From positions 62,001 through 126,000 of the forward strand of contig CAIYIS010000045.1 in assembly GCA_903926385.1 (NCBI GenBank): a stretch of 64,000 bases of DNA, read 5' to 3'. Below the pieces are notes generated by a model that saw only the letters and a list, made by a program, of their open reading frames with translations, ran no database searches and was not told the DNA's origin. The translations under genes were made by a program, and so were the position numbers. Positions within the stretch are counted from its first letter, which is position 1, and each line of letters starts with the position of its first letter. Source of the DNA: an uncultured Bacteroidota bacterium. Lineage in GTDB: Bacteria > Bacteroidota > Bacteroidia > 2-12-FULL-35-15. Shown here in pieces: positions 585-58,728 of the stretch.

Positions 585-915
585 GTAGCACAACGATTCG
601 TTCGGACGAATCGTTATCCTACATCAGTAGCAATGCAATCTGTTCGGACGGATCGTTATGCTACATCAATAGCAATGCGATTCGTTCGAACGAAGTGTTA
701 TGCTACATCAATAGCAATACGATTCGTTCGAACGAAGTGTTATACTACATCAATAGCAATACGATTCGTTCGAACGAAGTGTTATGCTACATCAGTAGCA
801 ATACGATTCGTCCGAACGAAGTGTTATGCTACATTAGTAGCAATACGATTCGTCCGAACAAAGTGTTATGCTACATCAGTAGTAATACGATTCGTTCGAA
901 CGAAGTGTTATCCAT
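585..915 (+). repeat. Tandem array 1: eight 42-bp twin-hairpin units
   Basis: Eight units begin at 585, 627, 669, 711, 753, 795, 837 and 879 (the last incomplete) with no spacers. Each unit holds two inverted repeats: a palindrome TTCGTTCGAACGAA and a stem-loop TGCTAC-ATCA-GTAGCA. In the first unit the palindrome is replaced by an 8-bp stem with a TCGG loop. Variation between units is limited to a few positions. The array lies in the 528-bp gap between rluF and the BaiN-like gene, both on the minus strand. A second array of the same unit lies at about 35041-35360. Two plus-strand frames stay open because 42 is a multiple of three; this alone does not make it coding. The rest of the gap (414-584, 916-941) shows nothing recognisable. 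Confidence 0.95.
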
Positions 916-8073: not shown

Positions 8074-9159
8074 TTATTGTTTCAAAACACAGGTCAGTTC
8101 GTTCAGCAGTATATTTTTTTGCGATTCCTTCGAATAATTCTTCTCCACCGTTTCTCTTCCTTTTCTGCCCAGCGTTCTTCTCAGTTCAAACGAATCTATC
8201 AGCAGCGAAGTTTTGTTTACCCACTCTTCTCTAGTGTTTGCAATAAAACCATTCACTCCGTCTTCTATTATTTCGGTATTTACTCCCACCCCTGTCATTA
8301 TCGTAGGCACTTCTACCGACATGTACGAAAGCCCCTTCAGTCCGCATTTACCCTTCACCCATTGGTCGTCCGGCAGAGGCATTATGCCTATATCAAAACT
8401 CGAAAGCTCTTCCACTTCTGTTTCGGCCTTCCAGGCAATGCCCTCTATGCCCAGCTCTTTGTTCTCATAAGCCGCATCGCCCATTACTTTAAACGTTACT
8501 CGCTCACCGTATTTTTTCTTTATCTCCCTCAGGTAAGGCAGTGCCGCTTCAAAATGTTTAATCGTAGTATGACTTCCGCTCCAGCCTATACATATAGTGG
8601 CTTTGTCGGCCAATGGTTGCTTTCGTTTAAATAAAGCCGTGTCTATTGTAGTGGGAATAACTTTTACATTCGGGTTAAATTTTCTGGCATAATCTGCCAG
8701 ATAAGCATTGCCCCCAAACACCAGGTGCGACATCGAAATAATTCGTCCTGTTTTTTCTGCACTTTTCATCCATTGCCATATTTTGTTGGCATCCGATGTG
8801 TCGAGCAACCATATCGAATCGTCAAAATCGAATACCAGTTTGGCTTTCGACTTACTAAATTGTTTTTCGAAATAAGTAGTGCCCGTCATAAATGCTTCGC
8901 GCTGCACAAATATAATGTCGTAGCCATTGGCTCTTTTTACATCCCGCAGCCGTATGCGAGCGCTTTTTAGAGTAATCAAAAATTTCTGAATCAAATTTCC
9001 TCCGCTGTAAAACACCCGGTCGTCATTTGCATTTAGCAAATAAGATAGGTGGCATTCAAATCCGTTTTGCCCCAAATAGTCGAAATACTGTTCAAACCGA
9101 TATCGCTGGCTGGGCGAGCGGTCTGCACGATGAGCTGCTATAAATAATATTTTTGGCAT
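8074..9159 (-). CDS. Glycosyltransferase (GT-B, family 1/4-like)
   Basis: 361 residues. The first strand carries MPKILFIAAHRADRSPSQRYR, followed by a Rossmann-like N-terminal half and a C-terminal half with GWSGSHTTIKH, FDIGIMPLPDDQWVKGK and the nucleotide-sugar binding region KGLSYMSVEVPTIMT...EIIEDGVNGF. The EDGVNGF segment is the usual GT4 C-terminal glutamate motif. It lacks membrane segments, so it is likely cytosolic and may act in surface glycan assembly. Donor and acceptor cannot be predicted. It stands alone, with a -7 element 16 bp upstream and the long repeat-rich gap beyond. Confidence 0.85.
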   Translation of the reverse strand: MPKILFIAAHRADRSPSQRYRFEQYFDYLGQNGFECHLSYLLNANDDRVFYSGGNLIQKFLITLKSARIRLRDVKRANGYDIIFVQREAFMTGTTYFEKQFSKSKAKLVFDFDDSIWLLDTSDANKIWQWMKSAEKTGRIISMSHLVFGGNAYLADYARKFNPNVKVIPTTIDTALFKRKQPLADKATICIGWSGSHTTIKHFEAALPYLREIKKKYGERVTFKVMGDAAYENKELGIEGIAWKAETEVEELSSFDIGIMPLPDDQWVKGKCGLKGLSYMSVEVPTIMTGVGVNTEIIEDGVNGFIANTREEWVNKTSLLIDSFELRRTLGRKGRETVEKNYSKESQKNILLNELTCVLKQ

Positions 9160-9182: not shown

Positions 9183-9475
9183 AAAAGTATAGGCATACTG
9201 GCTTGGTTAATTAATGGTTTACTCGATTTGGATAGTATAAGTGAAATCGCCAATGTAAAAAGGGGATGATGGGCTAAGGGAGAAAGGGCGGGATTAGGAA
9301 ATGGACTGATGTTAGACTATTATTATACTATATATAATAGTATGGAAGGGGAAAAAGGGGGAAGAGGGGAAGTGAAGGGAGGGAGTGATAAAATGAGGGA
9401 GTGGGAAACGGAAAGGAGGGCAAGAAATGGATGGGCGAATGTTGGAAATTGAAAAAAAGCAGAAAATAGGGCCGA

Positions 9476-9720
9476 CCGATGATAGGAAATTGAGACGCGA
9501 TGATAGGAAATTAAGAAAAAGTGGAAAAAACGGATGAGCGATGATAGGAAACTGAGACGCGATGATAGGAAATTGAAAAAAAAAGTAAGAAACTGAGACG
9601 CGATGATAGGAAATTGAGAAAAAGTGGAAAAAACGGATGACCGATGATAGGAAACTGAGACGCGATGATAGGAAATTGAAAAAAAAGTAAGAAACTGAGA
9701 CGCGATGATAGGAAATTGGA
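9476..9720 (+). repeat. Higher-order tandem repeat with a CGATGATAGGAAA core
   Basis: The core CGATGATAGGAAA(T/C)TGA recurs about eight times, often followed by GACG, in a compound period of roughly 103 bp (copies near 9539 and 9642). Interspersed runs of A and the words GTAAGAAACTGAGACG and GTGGAAAAAACGGATGA belong to the period. The reverse strand reads as low-complexity protein, but in several frames at once, so it is treated as non-coding. Confidence 0.85.
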
Positions 9721-12592: not shown

Positions 12593-14356
12593 ATGAAGAA
12601 AGTAATTACAATTGTTTTTGCACTTCTTATGTATATGGGCACAAATGCTTCCACACCTTTCATTACCAAATGGGATTTATCCATTGCAGGCAGTGGTGCT
12701 TCGCAAATTACATTTGGTGTGGGCACCACAGGCATTGTTAATTATACATGGCTACAATTAACGGGTGGGAGTGCTACCGGCAGTGGTACTTTTAGTGGAA
12801 CTACCGCAACTATCAGCGGTTTACCAGCAGGTGGTACCATACGTTTGAGTATTGATTCGGTAAATTTTAATAGAATTAATATTAATAATGGTATTGATAA
12901 AAATCGTTTACTTGACGTGGAGCAATGGGGAACTGTTGCATGGAGCAGTATGCAAAATGCGTTTTGGGGTAGTATTAATTTGAATATTACTTCTACTGAT
13001 TTGCCTGACTTAAGTGGTGTTAATAATATGTATAAAATGTTCTGTGATTGTATGGTGTTGAATGGTCCCACCAATATTGGGCTTTGGAATACTTCGGCTG
13101 TTACAAATATGAGTTTGGTGTTTGAAAATGCAATTGCGTTCAATCAACCCATCGGAAGTTGGAATACATCGGCTGTTACGAATATGAATGAGGAGTTTTT
13201 TAATGCGACTGCCTTCAATCAACCCATCGACAGTTGGAATACTTCGGCTGTTATTAATATGCGTTATATGTTTGCTTATGCAAATGCGTTCAATCAACCC
13301 ATAGGAAACTGGAATACATCGGCTGTTATTGATATGAGTGCTACGTTTGCTAATGCAAATACCTTCAATCAACCTATCGACAGTTGGAATACTTCTGCCG
13401 TTATTGACATGCCTTGGATGTTCGATGGAGCAAGCAGCTTCAATCAACCACTTGGCAGTTGGAATACAATTCACGTTACCAATATGAGCAGAATGTTTAA
13501 GTTAGCAAGTGCCTTCAATCAACCTATAGGCAGTTGGAATACTTCGGCTGTTACCGAAATGGAGCATATGTTTTATAATGCAAGTACTTTCAATCAATCC
13601 ATTGATAGTTGGAATACATCAGCAGTTACCAATATGGCTGCAATGTTTGATGGAGCTTTCGTTTTCAATCAACCAATAGATGGTTGGAATACATCGGCTG
13701 TTACTAATATGAGTTATATGTTTCAAGGCACAACAGCTTTCAATCAACCCATTGGAAGTTGGAATACATCAGCAGTTACAAATATGGGTGAAATGTTTAA
13801 TTCTGCCAGCGCATTCAATCAATCCCTTGCAAATTGGAACTTAATTTCTTCTCCCAGCTTTAATCAGATGTTTGATAACTCGGGTATGGATTGTGATAGT
13901 TATTCATCCACCTTGGTTGGCTGGAATGCAAATAGCAATACTCCTAATAATCGTTCTTTAGGAGCAATAGCAATGCAATATGGAACCACTGCCGTTGCTG
14001 CCCGCACTAACCTTACAACTACTAAAGGCTGGACAATAACAGGTGATGCACCCAGTGGTACCGCATGTTTGACAACTGTTGGTATTTCTTCCATCAATAA
14101 TCCTATATCGGAGATAGATATTTCCCCCAACCCCGCCACCACCCAATTAACAATTCAACAATTGGACAATTCTACAATTGAAACCATACATATATATAAT
14201 GTACTTGGAGAGGTGGTGCAGTCATCGGACATAGGACATCGCACATCGGTTGCTTTAGATGTAAGCGGACTGAACAAAGGAATTTATTTTATTGAAGCAG
14301 CCCTTATTCGGGGTAACAACAATCAACTAATAAGAAAGAAATTTGTAAAAGAATAA
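12593..14356 (+). CDS. BspA-like (DUF285) repeat surface protein with T9SS sorting domain
   Basis: 587 residues. A signal peptide ([20 protein letters not shown]) is followed by about 140 residues of lead-in. Then come ten near-identical 25-residue repeats and one degenerate repeat (about residues 162-425) of the form [25 protein letters not shown]. This is the BspA/DUF285 leucine-rich-like repeat found on surface proteins of bacteria and protists, usually linked to adhesion. The repeats are also alike at DNA level (75 bp each), suggesting recent expansion. The C-terminus ([15 protein letters not shown] to FVKE) is a T9SS type A sorting domain. It has its own -7 element and stands alone. Confidence 0.92.
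13078..13830 (+). repeat. 75-bp tandem coding repeats within the BspA-like gene
   Basis: Ten 75-bp units encode the 25-residue repeats. Words such as TTCAATCAACCCAT and TGGAATAC recur almost unchanged, so copy number is likely to vary between strains. Confidence 0.85.
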
Positions 14357-16481: not shown

Positions 16482-17120
16482 TTAATTATTCGGATGTCCG
16501 GCTTCTATCCATTTGCGAACGGCAGTGATATCGCAATCGGATAACGGGCTGGTGTTTTTGGGCATAGGAGAGTAACCGGCAGTATGCTGCAAGGTTCCAA
16601 GGAGACGATTGGCTGTAACGGAAGCCACTACACCGTTGTAAGATGAAAGGTCGTAACCGCCTCCACTGTTGGTAGCGCTGTGGCAACCCACGCACCAGTT
16701 GTCCATAAGTGGTTTTATGCGGGCATTGAATGCAAACTGAGTGGTGTCGCAACCTTTGCAATTGCTGCTGTTGGGTGCGCCCATATTTATCCATGTTTTA
16801 ATAATGTTCACTTCGCGTGTGCCGAGCTTAGGTATTCCTCCTGTGGGCATGGAGGGGTTGTTTCCACGAATGGTAGTATAAACTTTGCTTAACATGGGGT
16901 GATTAGCTTTAACACCTTTCATAATACCATCGTAATTGGTAAGGTCTAAGCCTTCTTTATGGTGCTGGGAGTTGTGGCAGTCGCCCATGGAACAGTTGGA
17001 TACAAATATGGGTAATACATTTTCCTGAAAACAGATATCGGGATTGTACACGTCTTTTTTACAAGTGGTAAGCAGGGCAAAGGTTATAATAAGCAATACA
17101 GCAATTTTTTTCATATTCAT
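16482..17120 (-). CDS. Di-heme-type cytochrome c lipoprotein
   Basis: 212 residues. A lipoprotein signal (FALLTTC, with KKD following) predicts membrane anchoring. Two similar halves each carry a heme site: an unusual CX4CH (CSMGDCH, about residues 43-49) and a canonical CVGCH near residue 142. Each half ends with a methionine-containing loop (NPSMPTGG; YSPMPKN) that could give the sixth heme ligand, then a W-I-x-x-G motif (TWINMGAPN; KWIEAGHPN). The pattern resembles planctomycete-type cytochrome domains and the N-terminus of the protein at 58753. Redox partner unknown. Confidence 0.8.
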   Translation of the reverse strand: MNMKKIAVLLIITFALLTTCKKDVYNPDICFQENVLPIFVSNCSMGDCHNSQHHKEGLDLTNYDGIMKGVKANHPMLSKVYTTIRGNNPSMPTGGIPKLGTREVNIIKTWINMGAPNSSNCKGCDTTQFAFNARIKPLMDNWCVGCHSATNSGGGYDLSSYNGVVASVTANRLLGTLQHTAGYSPMPKNTSPLSDCDITAVRKWIEAGHPNN

Positions 17121-17742
17121 ATTTTTGTGTCGAACTTAACTGATACCGGGAAGAGGAAGTGATGCAGGCCGGTTTTGTTTGTGTTTTCTTTTTTTGGAAG
17201 TTGCAAAATTGCATATTTTAAGTGAGAACTGAGGCGTTTTGTGGAAATAATTAAGTTGGGTGGAGGAAGGTGGAGGAAAAGTGAGTTTAAAGTTGGAAAG
17301 TTTAAAGTGGAGGAAAAGTGAGTTTAAAGTTTAATGTTAGAAAGTTTAAAGTGAAGGAATAGTGAGTTTAAAGTTTAAAGTTAGAAAGTTTAAAGTAGAG
17401 TGTTGTTTATTTGGATTTGGGTAGTAATTAAGGAAGATGTTTAGGAATGAAGATGGCTTTGCGAAATACGCCCTTCGACAGGCTCAGGGTGACGGGAGGA
17501 ATTTAGGAATGGGGGAGGTTGCCACAGATTCACAGATTGGGATTTTGGAAAATAGGAATTGTAAGAAGATGCGTTGTAAACGCATTTCTCAAGCGCCCTC
17601 GTTACAAACGAGGGCGAGTATAGCCTCTTGGGTAGCAGTGGTACTTCCATATTCTCGGTGGAGGTATGTGAGGGAGACTCCAGACAGAGATGTTCGGAGT
17701 TTTTTTGTTTTTATGGTTTGAATTTAAAAGATGCTAATTGAA
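17121..17742. other. Gene-free stretch with dispersed repeats
   Basis: The 622 bp hold direct repeats of GTTTAAAGTT(A/G)GAAAGTTTAAAG (17280-17400), including an exact GTTTAAAGTTAGAAAGTT at 17373-17390, a CCCTTCGACAGGCTCAGGG element near 17470, two adjacent hairpins (17569-17616), and ACTCC/GGAGT before a T-tract near 17700 that may end transcription. No gene seen. Confidence 0.75.
17569..17616. repeat. Pair of adjacent hairpins
   Basis: ATGCGTT-GTA-AACGCAT (17569-17585) is followed by the 10-bp stem CGCCCTCGTT-ACA-AACGAGGGCG (17594-17616). Both are perfect. They look like a dispersed intergenic element rather than a terminator, as no T-run follows. Confidence 0.7.
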
Positions 17743-34947: not shown

Positions 34948-34973
34948 TTGTATTTTTTTTCACTATAATTTTG
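34948..34973 (+). promoter_or_regulatory. Candidate promoter (TTG-N15-TAATTTTG) upstream of array 2
   Basis: TTG at 34948-34950 and TAnnTTTG at 34966-34973, spacing 15 bp (shorter than the usual 17-23). Transcription from here would carry the whole array into the leader of the gene at 35441, about 460 bases long. Confidence 0.45.
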
Positions 34974-35040
34974 TACCGAATCTTAATTCAAGAGTTCTTT
35001 GATAGCATTCTGCTAAAGCAGAAAAAAAGAAAAACGGAGT

Positions 35041-35360
35041 GGCATATCGATCCGTTCGAACGAAGTGTTATGCTACATTAATAGCAACACGATTTGCTCG
35101 AACGAAGTGTTATGCTACATCAATAGCAATACGATTCGTCCGAACGGAGTGTTATGCTACATCAGTAGCAATACGATTCGTCCGAACGAAGTGTTATGCT
35201 ACATCAATAGCAACCCGATTCGTCCGAACGGAGTGATATGCTACATCAATAGCAACACGATTCGTCCGAACGGAGTGATATGCTACATCAGTAGCAACCC
35301 GATTCGTCCGAACAAAGTGTTATGCTACATCAGTAGCAATACGATTCGTTCGGATTTTTG
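35041..35360 (+). repeat. Tandem array 2: about eight 42-bp twin-hairpin units
   Basis: Units start at about 35041, then 35081, 35123, 35165, 35207, 35249, 35291 and 35333 (last one partial). The unit is the same as in array 1: TTCG(T/C)CCGAACG(G/A)A-type palindromes alternate with TGCTAC-ATCA-(G/A)TAGCA stems. Here most palindromes are the TCCG variant, and units 3, 5 and 6 carry AACGGA opposite it, restoring part of the pairing as G-T. Orientation is the same as the flanking genes. It ends 80 bp before the start of an unknown gene. Confidence 0.95.
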
Positions 35361-35440: not shown

Positions 35441-36397
35441 ATGAGAACCTATCAGTATTTTGTAAATCCTTTCTTGGTGATTGGATCAAGAAGTTTTAAA
35501 AAAGCAGTAAAAATGTCGAAAAAGACATATAATGAACTGCAAGCACGACAAGCCGACCCGTTTTACGGAGCACAGTTTGCCATTTACGAACCCATTCATT
35601 TGGCACTTATGGCTGCCTACAATGCATGGAAAGCAGCAGGTGGATTGCAAAAAGGAGCTACCCTTAGTTTTCAGCAAATGTTAAAATTATTACCAAAGAA
35701 AATGGATGGTTTTGCTTCGCTTATTAAAGCCACCAGTCCTCCTAATTTCGAAATTGGTAGTCCTAATTATGTCGCTATTTTTCCGAACGACATGAAGAAT
35801 TTCCAAGCCAACAAAAGTATAGAAGTTCGCATGACAGAAGTGTCGCAAGTGGCTACCGTACTGGCTACTTTCAGTGCCCTTTCGGCTATCAGCACCTCGT
35901 TTACTACTTATATGGGCACTTTGCTTATTGCTCAGGGAGTGCAACAAAGTAAAGTAGGAACAAAAGGTTCCGATGTAGATGTGGTGGCGGCAGAAGTAGA
36001 AACCGCTATGGTGGCTCTTTATGCATTTATGGGTAATTGTATAGCTAAGTTTCCGGGCGATGCCACAGTGGTTGAACCGGTTTTCGACATGCGCACCTTA
36101 CGCAATCATCGCCAGCTTAAGTTTACCGGAACGCTTGCCGGAGGCGAAATACACAACATTATGCAACATACTTTCCACGATTTCGATTCGATAGAGTTAA
36201 CCGCAAAAGATACCAAACAGCAGTTTTATTTGGCACTCAACGCCACTGATGGACCCGGTACGTACACATTAATTACTGTAAATGCCAACACTTCTGTACT
36301 GATAGATGCCATCGACTTTACCGGCCTTGCCACTAATCATTACCTCTGTGTGGTAAACCTCGAAACCACAACCGGAAAATTTGAAGTGCAGTTGTAA
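35441..36397 (+). CDS. Protein of unknown function behind repeat array 2
   Basis: 318 residues, no family recognised. No clear signal peptide. Residues 25-200 are predicted helical with many alanines (HLALMAAYNAWKAAGG; ATFSALSAISTSFTTYMGTLLIAQG), possibly a helical bundle. The last 100 residues look like a beta-sandwich (LKFTGTLAGGEIHNIMQHTF, FYLALNATDGPGTYTLITVN, KFEVQL). An internal start at Met25 (MSKKTYNELQARQ) is possible. The gene is followed by a strong terminator, so it is a single-gene unit; its long array-containing leader is the notable feature. Confidence 0.7.
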   Translation: MRTYQYFVNPFLVIGSRSFKKAVKMSKKTYNELQARQADPFYGAQFAIYEPIHLALMAAYNAWKAAGGLQKGATLSFQQMLKLLPKKMDGFASLIKATSPPNFEIGSPNYVAIFPNDMKNFQANKSIEVRMTEVSQVATVLATFSALSAISTSFTTYMGTLLIAQGVQQSKVGTKGSDVDVVAAEVETAMVALYAFMGNCIAKFPGDATVVEPVFDMRTLRNHRQLKFTGTLAGGEIHNIMQHTFHDFDSIELTAKDTKQQFYLALNATDGPGTYTLITVNANTSVLIDAIDFTGLATNHYLCVVNLETTTGKFEVQL

Positions 36398-58071: not shown

Positions 58072-58728
58072 CAACAAATTATTTTCGGATTTAACCAAAT
58101 TTAAGGATTAGAATTAAAATGAAGCGTGATAATTTATGGCAATATTTACCTCTTTGTGTCTTTGTGTCTTTCTGTTAGAATTCTACTTTATTATCATATT
58201 CCTATTGAGTATTCGATTTTCTCTTCTTTTGCATCCAAAGAAAGGGATTAAAGGAATTAATTGCATTTTTTTACGTTAACTTTCAGGACTTTCGTCAACA
58301 AAATGAGAAATACTCCCTAAATCTTGAGTTGTTGTTCCAACAATTTGAATTGTCGTACCTAAATCTTGAATTATTGTTCCTAACTGTTGAATTGTTATAC
58401 CTACCTGCTGAATTGTTGTACCTAATTCTTGAATTGTTGTACCAATTGCTTAAATCGTTAATAGAATATACTTAATTACAGTTAGATAAAAAATCAATAA
58501 CCTAAACACTTTCCCACTACCTGACCTCCATTCTTGGTTACCAACTCATGTAGAAAGAAAACATATTTGGCAGAAGGTAGTTTTTCATCTTTTGCTCCTT
58601 CTTACTGCAACAAATTTCTCATTCCAAACCTAGTGAAGTATCAAAAAGGGAAAAAGTATACTGAATTTATTCTGATGTGTAAATTTTGGAAAAAACAAAA
58701 ATATTTTTTTCATATTCCTATTTTTGTA
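58072..58728. other. Gene-free stretch between suf operon and cytochrome gene
   Basis: About 650 bp. Contains a short CTTTGTGTCTTTGTGTCTTT tract near 58153, the 21-bp repeats, and a minus-strand segment (58494-58640) that reads in one frame as a protein-like fragment interrupted by a stop. No intact gene seen. Confidence 0.7.
58276..58455 (-). pseudogene. Heptad-repeat coding remnant (21-bp repeats)
   Basis: Six to seven 21-bp direct repeats (58314-58452). In one minus-strand frame they read as a seven-residue repeat of the type GTTIQEL, with I and L at coiled-coil spacing, ending DESPES and a stop at 58276-58278. The frame is open for about 58 codons but starts just after a stop codon and has no ATG, GTG or TTG start. 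It looks like the decayed tail of a coiled-coil protein, or a non-coding repeat. Confidence 0.55.

Follow-up and report, generated by a model that had tools for sequence, protein, structure and literature searches.

Two 42-bp tandem arrays of a Bacteroidota genome represent a large class of helically phased arrays that appears to be undescribed

An uncultured Bacteroidota bacterium carries, at two distant loci, tandem copies of a 42-bp unit with internal palindromes, which raises the question of what kind of element these arrays are and what might recognize them. We addressed this question starting from a window of 64,000 nucleotides, positions 62001-126000 of the 315-kb contig C45 in genome G000. 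TRF delimited array 1 at 584-911 (period 42, 7.8 copies, 90% match) and array 2 at 35048-35349 (period 42, 7.2 copies, 90% match), both on the forward strand, bearing out the initial annotation of two arrays in the same orientation with about eight copies each. The two consensus units are identical at 40 of 42 positions, and array 1 aligns to array 2 (35026-35352) at 88-91%, the homology beginning about 13 bp before the first unit, at the 5' edge of array 2, where position 572 pairs with 35026. Including this homology, array 1 spans 572-911; array 2, from unit phasing, dyads, and column counts in addition to TRF, spans 35048-35352. The dyads of the unit lie at positions 10/11 and 31/32, exactly 21 bp apart. 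To state that every unit holds both palindromes was too strong, since a C at position 9 breaks the perfect 14-mer palindrome in 7 of 14 units and an A at position 34 places an A-C mismatch in the second stem in 7 of 14. A search of the genome and its relatives, also proposed in the initial annotation, confined the unit to the two arrays: neither the 85 contigs of the 4.27-Mb draft genome nor 58 relatives, of which 35 belong to the same genus, yielded another copy, and the weak matches there fall in coding genes and reflect chance only. We rejected a protein-coding repeat, given a period of 41 in five arrays of the class described below and the closure of most frames in every unit; some frames do stay open through the 42-bp units of the window, a length divisible by three, and they encode no recognized product.

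The two arrays differ in their surroundings. Array 1 has as neighbors an HI0933-like gene and a pseudouridine synthase gene, both on the reverse strand, and no partner gene. Array 2 sits between a promoter/boxA-like leader and a gene on the same strand (35441-36397). The leader contains a promoter-like TTG...TAATTTTG at 34948-34973 (+), of the Bacteroidota TAnnTTTG type, with TAATTTTG itself at 34966-34973; this is a consensus match with weak -33 spacing. Downstream, at 34994-35021 (+), lie the boxA-like GTTCTTTGA (34994-35002) and the palindrome CTGCTAAAGCAG (35010-35021). The partner gene encodes an unannotated protein of 318 aa, the founding member of what we call family 1. Neither this protein nor its homologs gave a match at a usable E value in Pfam, NCBIfam, PADLOC, or PHROGs, or a sequence match in the PDB. 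Two AlphaFold2 models, computed with five sequences, were poor (pLDDT 60 and 65, pTM 0.33) and predict, at low confidence, a helical N-terminal part followed by a C-terminal eight-stranded beta-sandwich. The closest likenesses of the predicted sandwich are PirA (best; Z 11.6 for the L140 model and 9.9 for the window protein), PPC, and GOLD domains; in these models, it resembles many unrelated folds, a common arrangement that reveals no function.

Searching the genome with the leader returned more loci at which a boxA-like motif precedes a 42-bp array, the arrays being of quite different sequence. The 318-aa protein in turn retrieved first seven paralogues, each with a 42-bp array upstream and each array with a different unit, and a profile search identified eleven family-1 members in this genome, namely, the 35441-36397 gene and 10 paralogues. 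At one locus (L049, 2603-3013; G000:C30), the family-1 array is preceded by 2.4 tandem copies, each of 168 bp, of the promoter-boxA leader itself. Within the genus, family 1 is found in 9 of 36 genomes with 1 to 13 matches each, and within the class in 23 of 395 genomes from at least nine taxonomic families, the class-wide copy numbers being lower bounds given that scoring was limited to the five best candidates of each genome. The named matches are uncultured Bacteroidetes genomes. A phage or plasmid origin was dropped, as the viral contigs, phages, and plasmids searched gave no match; a weak match (E 0.02) to a plasmid protein from Halocatena was set aside as irrelevant.

The association of family 1 with a 42-bp pitch is general. 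When upstream periods from 14 to 70 were compared, the best was 42 or 41 in 62 of the 69 members with enough upstream DNA, a count whose entries are not independent because the members are mutually homologous, and the mean best identity was 0.757 at period 42 versus about 0.355 at other periods. Successive units are spaced by 42 bp (230 cases) or 41 bp (21), and members that appeared arrayless by TRF mostly showed the same period when scored by autocorrelation. No array was found at four remote relatives (L122, L124, L137, and L139; about 235-260 aa, with a different C terminus) or at the fragment L094, and a remote member from another class (L134, in G555) follows a 21-bp array of 12 copies, a pitch otherwise typical of family 2. 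As a control, we scored the 44 ORFs of at least 150 aa in the window; besides the 35441 gene, two showed a period of the series upstream at an identity of at least 0.5, and both adjoin other arrays (58316-58445 and 9444-9718, see below). The sequence of the unit is, in contrast to its length, private to each locus: between arrays, similarity stays at the shuffled level when protein identity is below about 35% and is only marginally higher for identities up to 50%, such that unit likeness is kept only among closely related proteins. L051 and L052, for instance, share 78% identity in their coding regions, and their arrays are unrelated. Upstream of L115, an 84/42-bp array has a unit holding GGGATTGAATGAAAC, which recalls the end of a CRISPR repeat and is probably a coincidence.

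A boxA-led array of period 21 next to a different gene revealed a second unannotated family, of about 220 aa, whose proteins belong to no Pfam, NCBIfam, or PHROGs family at a usable E value. This family 2 occurs in 8 of the 9 genomes of the genus that contain family 1, with 3 to 17 matches each, and in 17 of 395 genomes of the class, spread over five taxonomic families. Both families are present together in 11 of the 395 class genomes (hypergeometric p=1.8e-11, a value inflated by shared descent), and the genome studied here combines 11 family-1 and 10 family-2 genes into 21 cassettes. The best upstream period was 21, 42, 62, or 63 in all 41 family-2 members with enough upstream DNA, with unit spacings of 21 (153 cases), the double 42 (19), and four off pitch. 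Since family-1 periods are 42/41 and family-2 periods are 21 and its multiples, the pitch tracks the protein family, and across unrelated array sequences the pitch alone is constant. A reverse transcriptase considered as shared machinery was discarded, as its occurrence does not follow that of the arrays and this genome has none.

Not all arrays adjoin a family gene. A genome search with 19 arrays detected extra copies of about 8 of the some 20 gene-linked arrays at other sites, in unremarkable intergenic regions that lack a family gene. The homology of these orphans to their gene-linked partners covers the array and its flanks and sometimes extends through the complete leader to the start codon, in one case including about 40 bp of coding sequence, but does not include the whole gene. 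Some copies look recent (323 bp at 94%). Judged from the alignment described above, array 1 is an orphan of array 2. The window contains an additional orphan at 58316-58445, a 21-bp array of 6 copies detected by TRF, flanked by an Fe-S biosynthesis gene on one side and a lactonase-like gene on the other, without a partner gene; it has a relative on contig C69 (69% match at 16672-16772; 21 bp x 17.1 array in L228, 2175-2533). Upstream of a glycosyltransferase-like gene (8074-9159, reverse strand), a pyrimidine-rich repeat at 9444-9718 has periods of 41, 62, and 103, multiples of about 20.6; it belongs to the same pitch series, has no family gene, and is possibly another orphan array. Two other repeats of the window are a 75-bp coding tandem repeat of about 10 copies at 13084-13839, within the ORF 12593-14356, and an A/G-rich intergenic repeat of 44 bp/22 bp (AGTTTAAAGTT...) at 17270-17400, outside the 21-bp series.

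Arrays 1 and 2 thus belong to a large class of helically phased arrays, apparently undescribed, for which we found no description in open-access papers. An array of this class extends over about 200-300 bp and combines a private sequence with unit steps of exactly two helical turns (21 bp) or four (42 bp, in some cases 41). Most known arrays lie in the leader of a gene of about 220 aa (pitch 21) or about 320 aa (pitch 42), and a part of them stand alone in the chromosome. Array 2, with its period of 42 upstream of a family-1 gene, represents the former situation, and array 1, without a gene, is filed with the orphans. Steps of 21, 42, or 41 bp correspond to two or four turns of B-DNA, where A-form RNA would give 22 or 44. 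Dyad symmetry reaches p<0.05 in 25 of 57 family-1 arrays and in 5 of 35 family-2 arrays, where it is weak. The repeat design points to putative dimeric sites that recur on one face of the DNA. The suggestion in the initial annotation of a multi-site protein-binding array at fixed pitch remains the best fit, considering that the 42/41/21 pitch holds across unrelated arrays and that the dyads lie 21 bp apart, with binding as the conjectural part.

Our current working hypothesis, which we consider about evenly balanced, is that each array is a phased, self-private, multi-site platform bound by the product of the adjacent gene. The encoded protein would bind cooperatively to the array of its own gene, lined up in register on a single face of the DNA, and the two dyads of the 42-bp unit would accommodate symmetric dimers. 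The location of the array in the leader would make the partner gene self-regulating, and orphans such as array 1 may serve as further docking sites for the same protein. This platform would probably be on DNA rather than RNA. A more far-reaching proposal is an orthogonal address system, in which about 20 paralogous proteins per cell would each recognize only a private phased array, at their own gene and at its orphans, and would thereby form multivalent pairs of protein and nucleic acid that do not cross-react, while sequences are renewed and the pitch is kept; we hold this version tentatively and lean somewhat against it. Several observations count against the platform. The charge of the proteins is not conserved, with pI values ranging from 4.5 to 9.8, which is unusual in a nucleic-acid-binding family; the dyad symmetry of family 2 is weak; and L122, L124, L137, L139, and L094 show no detectable array. 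The boxA-like motif in a third of the leaders suggests that transcription through the array is selected, something that a platform acting purely at the DNA level would not need, and where orphan copies are recent, a matched sequence need not mean shared recognition.

The main rival of the DNA platform is an architectural RNA, whereby a transcript of the leader, or a stand-alone orphan transcript, would offer about 12 equal 21-nt sites on which the encoded protein collects to form a ribonucleoprotein assembly. The leaders are indeed enriched in transcription signals: GTTCTTT occurs in 12 of 52 family-1 leaders versus 1.2 in shuffled sequences, a boxA-type motif in 15 of 54 family-1 and 13 of 31 family-2 leaders, and TAnnTTTG before boxA, across the class, in 6 of 27 versus 0.8 in shuffled sequences. 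Given this enrichment, many arrays are probably transcribed. BoxA is known ahead of long non-coding RNAs and CRISPR arrays (PMC7862264) and is retained in at least two of our orphans (L043/L206 and L218). Moreover, folding of the consensus units is slightly more favorable than that of shuffled controls (z about -1.5). The pattern of substitutions, however, is not that of a selected RNA stem. The initial annotation held that changes between units often keep G-T pairing, but A-C mismatches are as common, here and class-wide (59 single stem changes to G-T and 71 to A-C; 153 and 112 such changes in the remaining columns), and the covariation that it proposed to look for did not appear, with 10 double changes giving Watson-Crick pairs and 11 not. 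Since the stems show no preference for G-T over A-C, folded RNA is not the conserved feature. Mismatches in the consensus stems equal the shuffled expectation, the sense strand is the more stable one in 21 of 55 arrays and the antisense strand in the other 34, the pitch fits B-DNA and not the A form, and an Rfam cmscan of the window gave no match at gathering thresholds. The structured RNA envisaged in the initial annotation thus found no backing in wobble tolerance or sense-strand stability, probable transcription of many arrays notwithstanding, and we regard the architectural RNA as a serious but doubtful alternative.

Alternatively, the arrays could be selfish or by-product satellites that expand by slippage and are copied between intergenic sites, with a pitch set by a replication or nucleoid process and proteins that merely tolerate them. 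Such an origin would account for the copying of array modules without the gene and for the much faster divergence of arrays than of genes, but not for a pitch that depends on the adjoining protein family (42 versus 21), for the retention of arrays by two unrelated families through deep divergence, or for the lower variability of the symmetric columns (0.21 variants per stem column versus 0.41 in others, a difference to be read with the slight bias of consensus calling toward conserved columns). We consider it unlikely. Curvature alone could be selected if two-turn steps add up bends, and a 21/42 pitch with free sequence suits in-phase bending; yet simple curvature is unlikely because the A/T content lacks a 10.5-bp component (ratio 0.82 and 0.59; AA/TT 1.3 and 0.54), and curvature leaves the dyad symmetry and the matched orphans unexplained, which makes this reading very improbable. 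Equally remote in our judgment is an iteron or centromere, in which the array would be an origin of replication or a site of partition and the protein the corresponding initiator or adaptor. Plasmid iterons and Rep genes do offer a likeness, with several direct repeats of about two turns, here about 21 bp, immediately upstream of a gene of about 300 aa, and the centromere- or iteron-like site of the initial annotation stands as an analogy. As an identification it fails: the proteins match no Rep, Par, or other replication or partition family, no plasmid match was obtained, and the 21 cassettes are chromosomal, lying in one chromosome-sized genome with about 20 unrelated copies, locus-private units, and orphans.

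Among known repeat systems, CRISPR, iteron/Rep, and REP/BIME elements, Rfam families, and coding repeats are each set apart from these arrays by at least one defining feature that we tested. With a promoter, a boxA-like element, and regular untranslated repeats beside a protein gene, CRISPR arrays that have boxA leaders (PMC7862264) resemble ours. The arrays described here, by contrast, have locus-specific units joined head to tail at a pitch of 21 or 42 bp, without spacers, in agreement with the initial annotation that they are not CRISPR, and without Cas proteins, no Cas family being matched among the ten proteins nearest the arrays. REP/BIME elements are likewise interspersed, intergenic, and palindromic, but REP share one genome-wide sequence, whereas here the pitch alone is common and units of different loci are similar only at the shuffled level. 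The tandem repeats of Borgs evolve fast, with a unit of their own in each array, independent origins, and some intergenic locations (PMC9879509), all of which recalls our arrays; however, Borg units vary in length and many lie inside reading frames (PMC9879509), while the present arrays are non-coding, fixed in pitch, and tied to two protein families. The repeat-RNA systems VIPR (PMC13142463) and TIGR-Tas (PMC12045711) share with our cassettes solely a repeat element beside one partner protein gene. VIPR uses 5-nt YNNGG repeats with a RAMP protein (PMC13142463) and TIGR arrays encode guides (PMC12045711), unlike the uniform units within each of our arrays and the proteins without a known family.

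Homology searches cannot see a repeat class whose members share a pitch rather than a sequence, and this may explain why neither the class nor the two protein families had been annotated. If the proteins read their own arrays, these cassettes would provide many naturally orthogonal array-binding pairs and a test of what holds the pitch constant while the sequence turns over, and they would assign a role to two multi-copy protein families of Bacteroidota.
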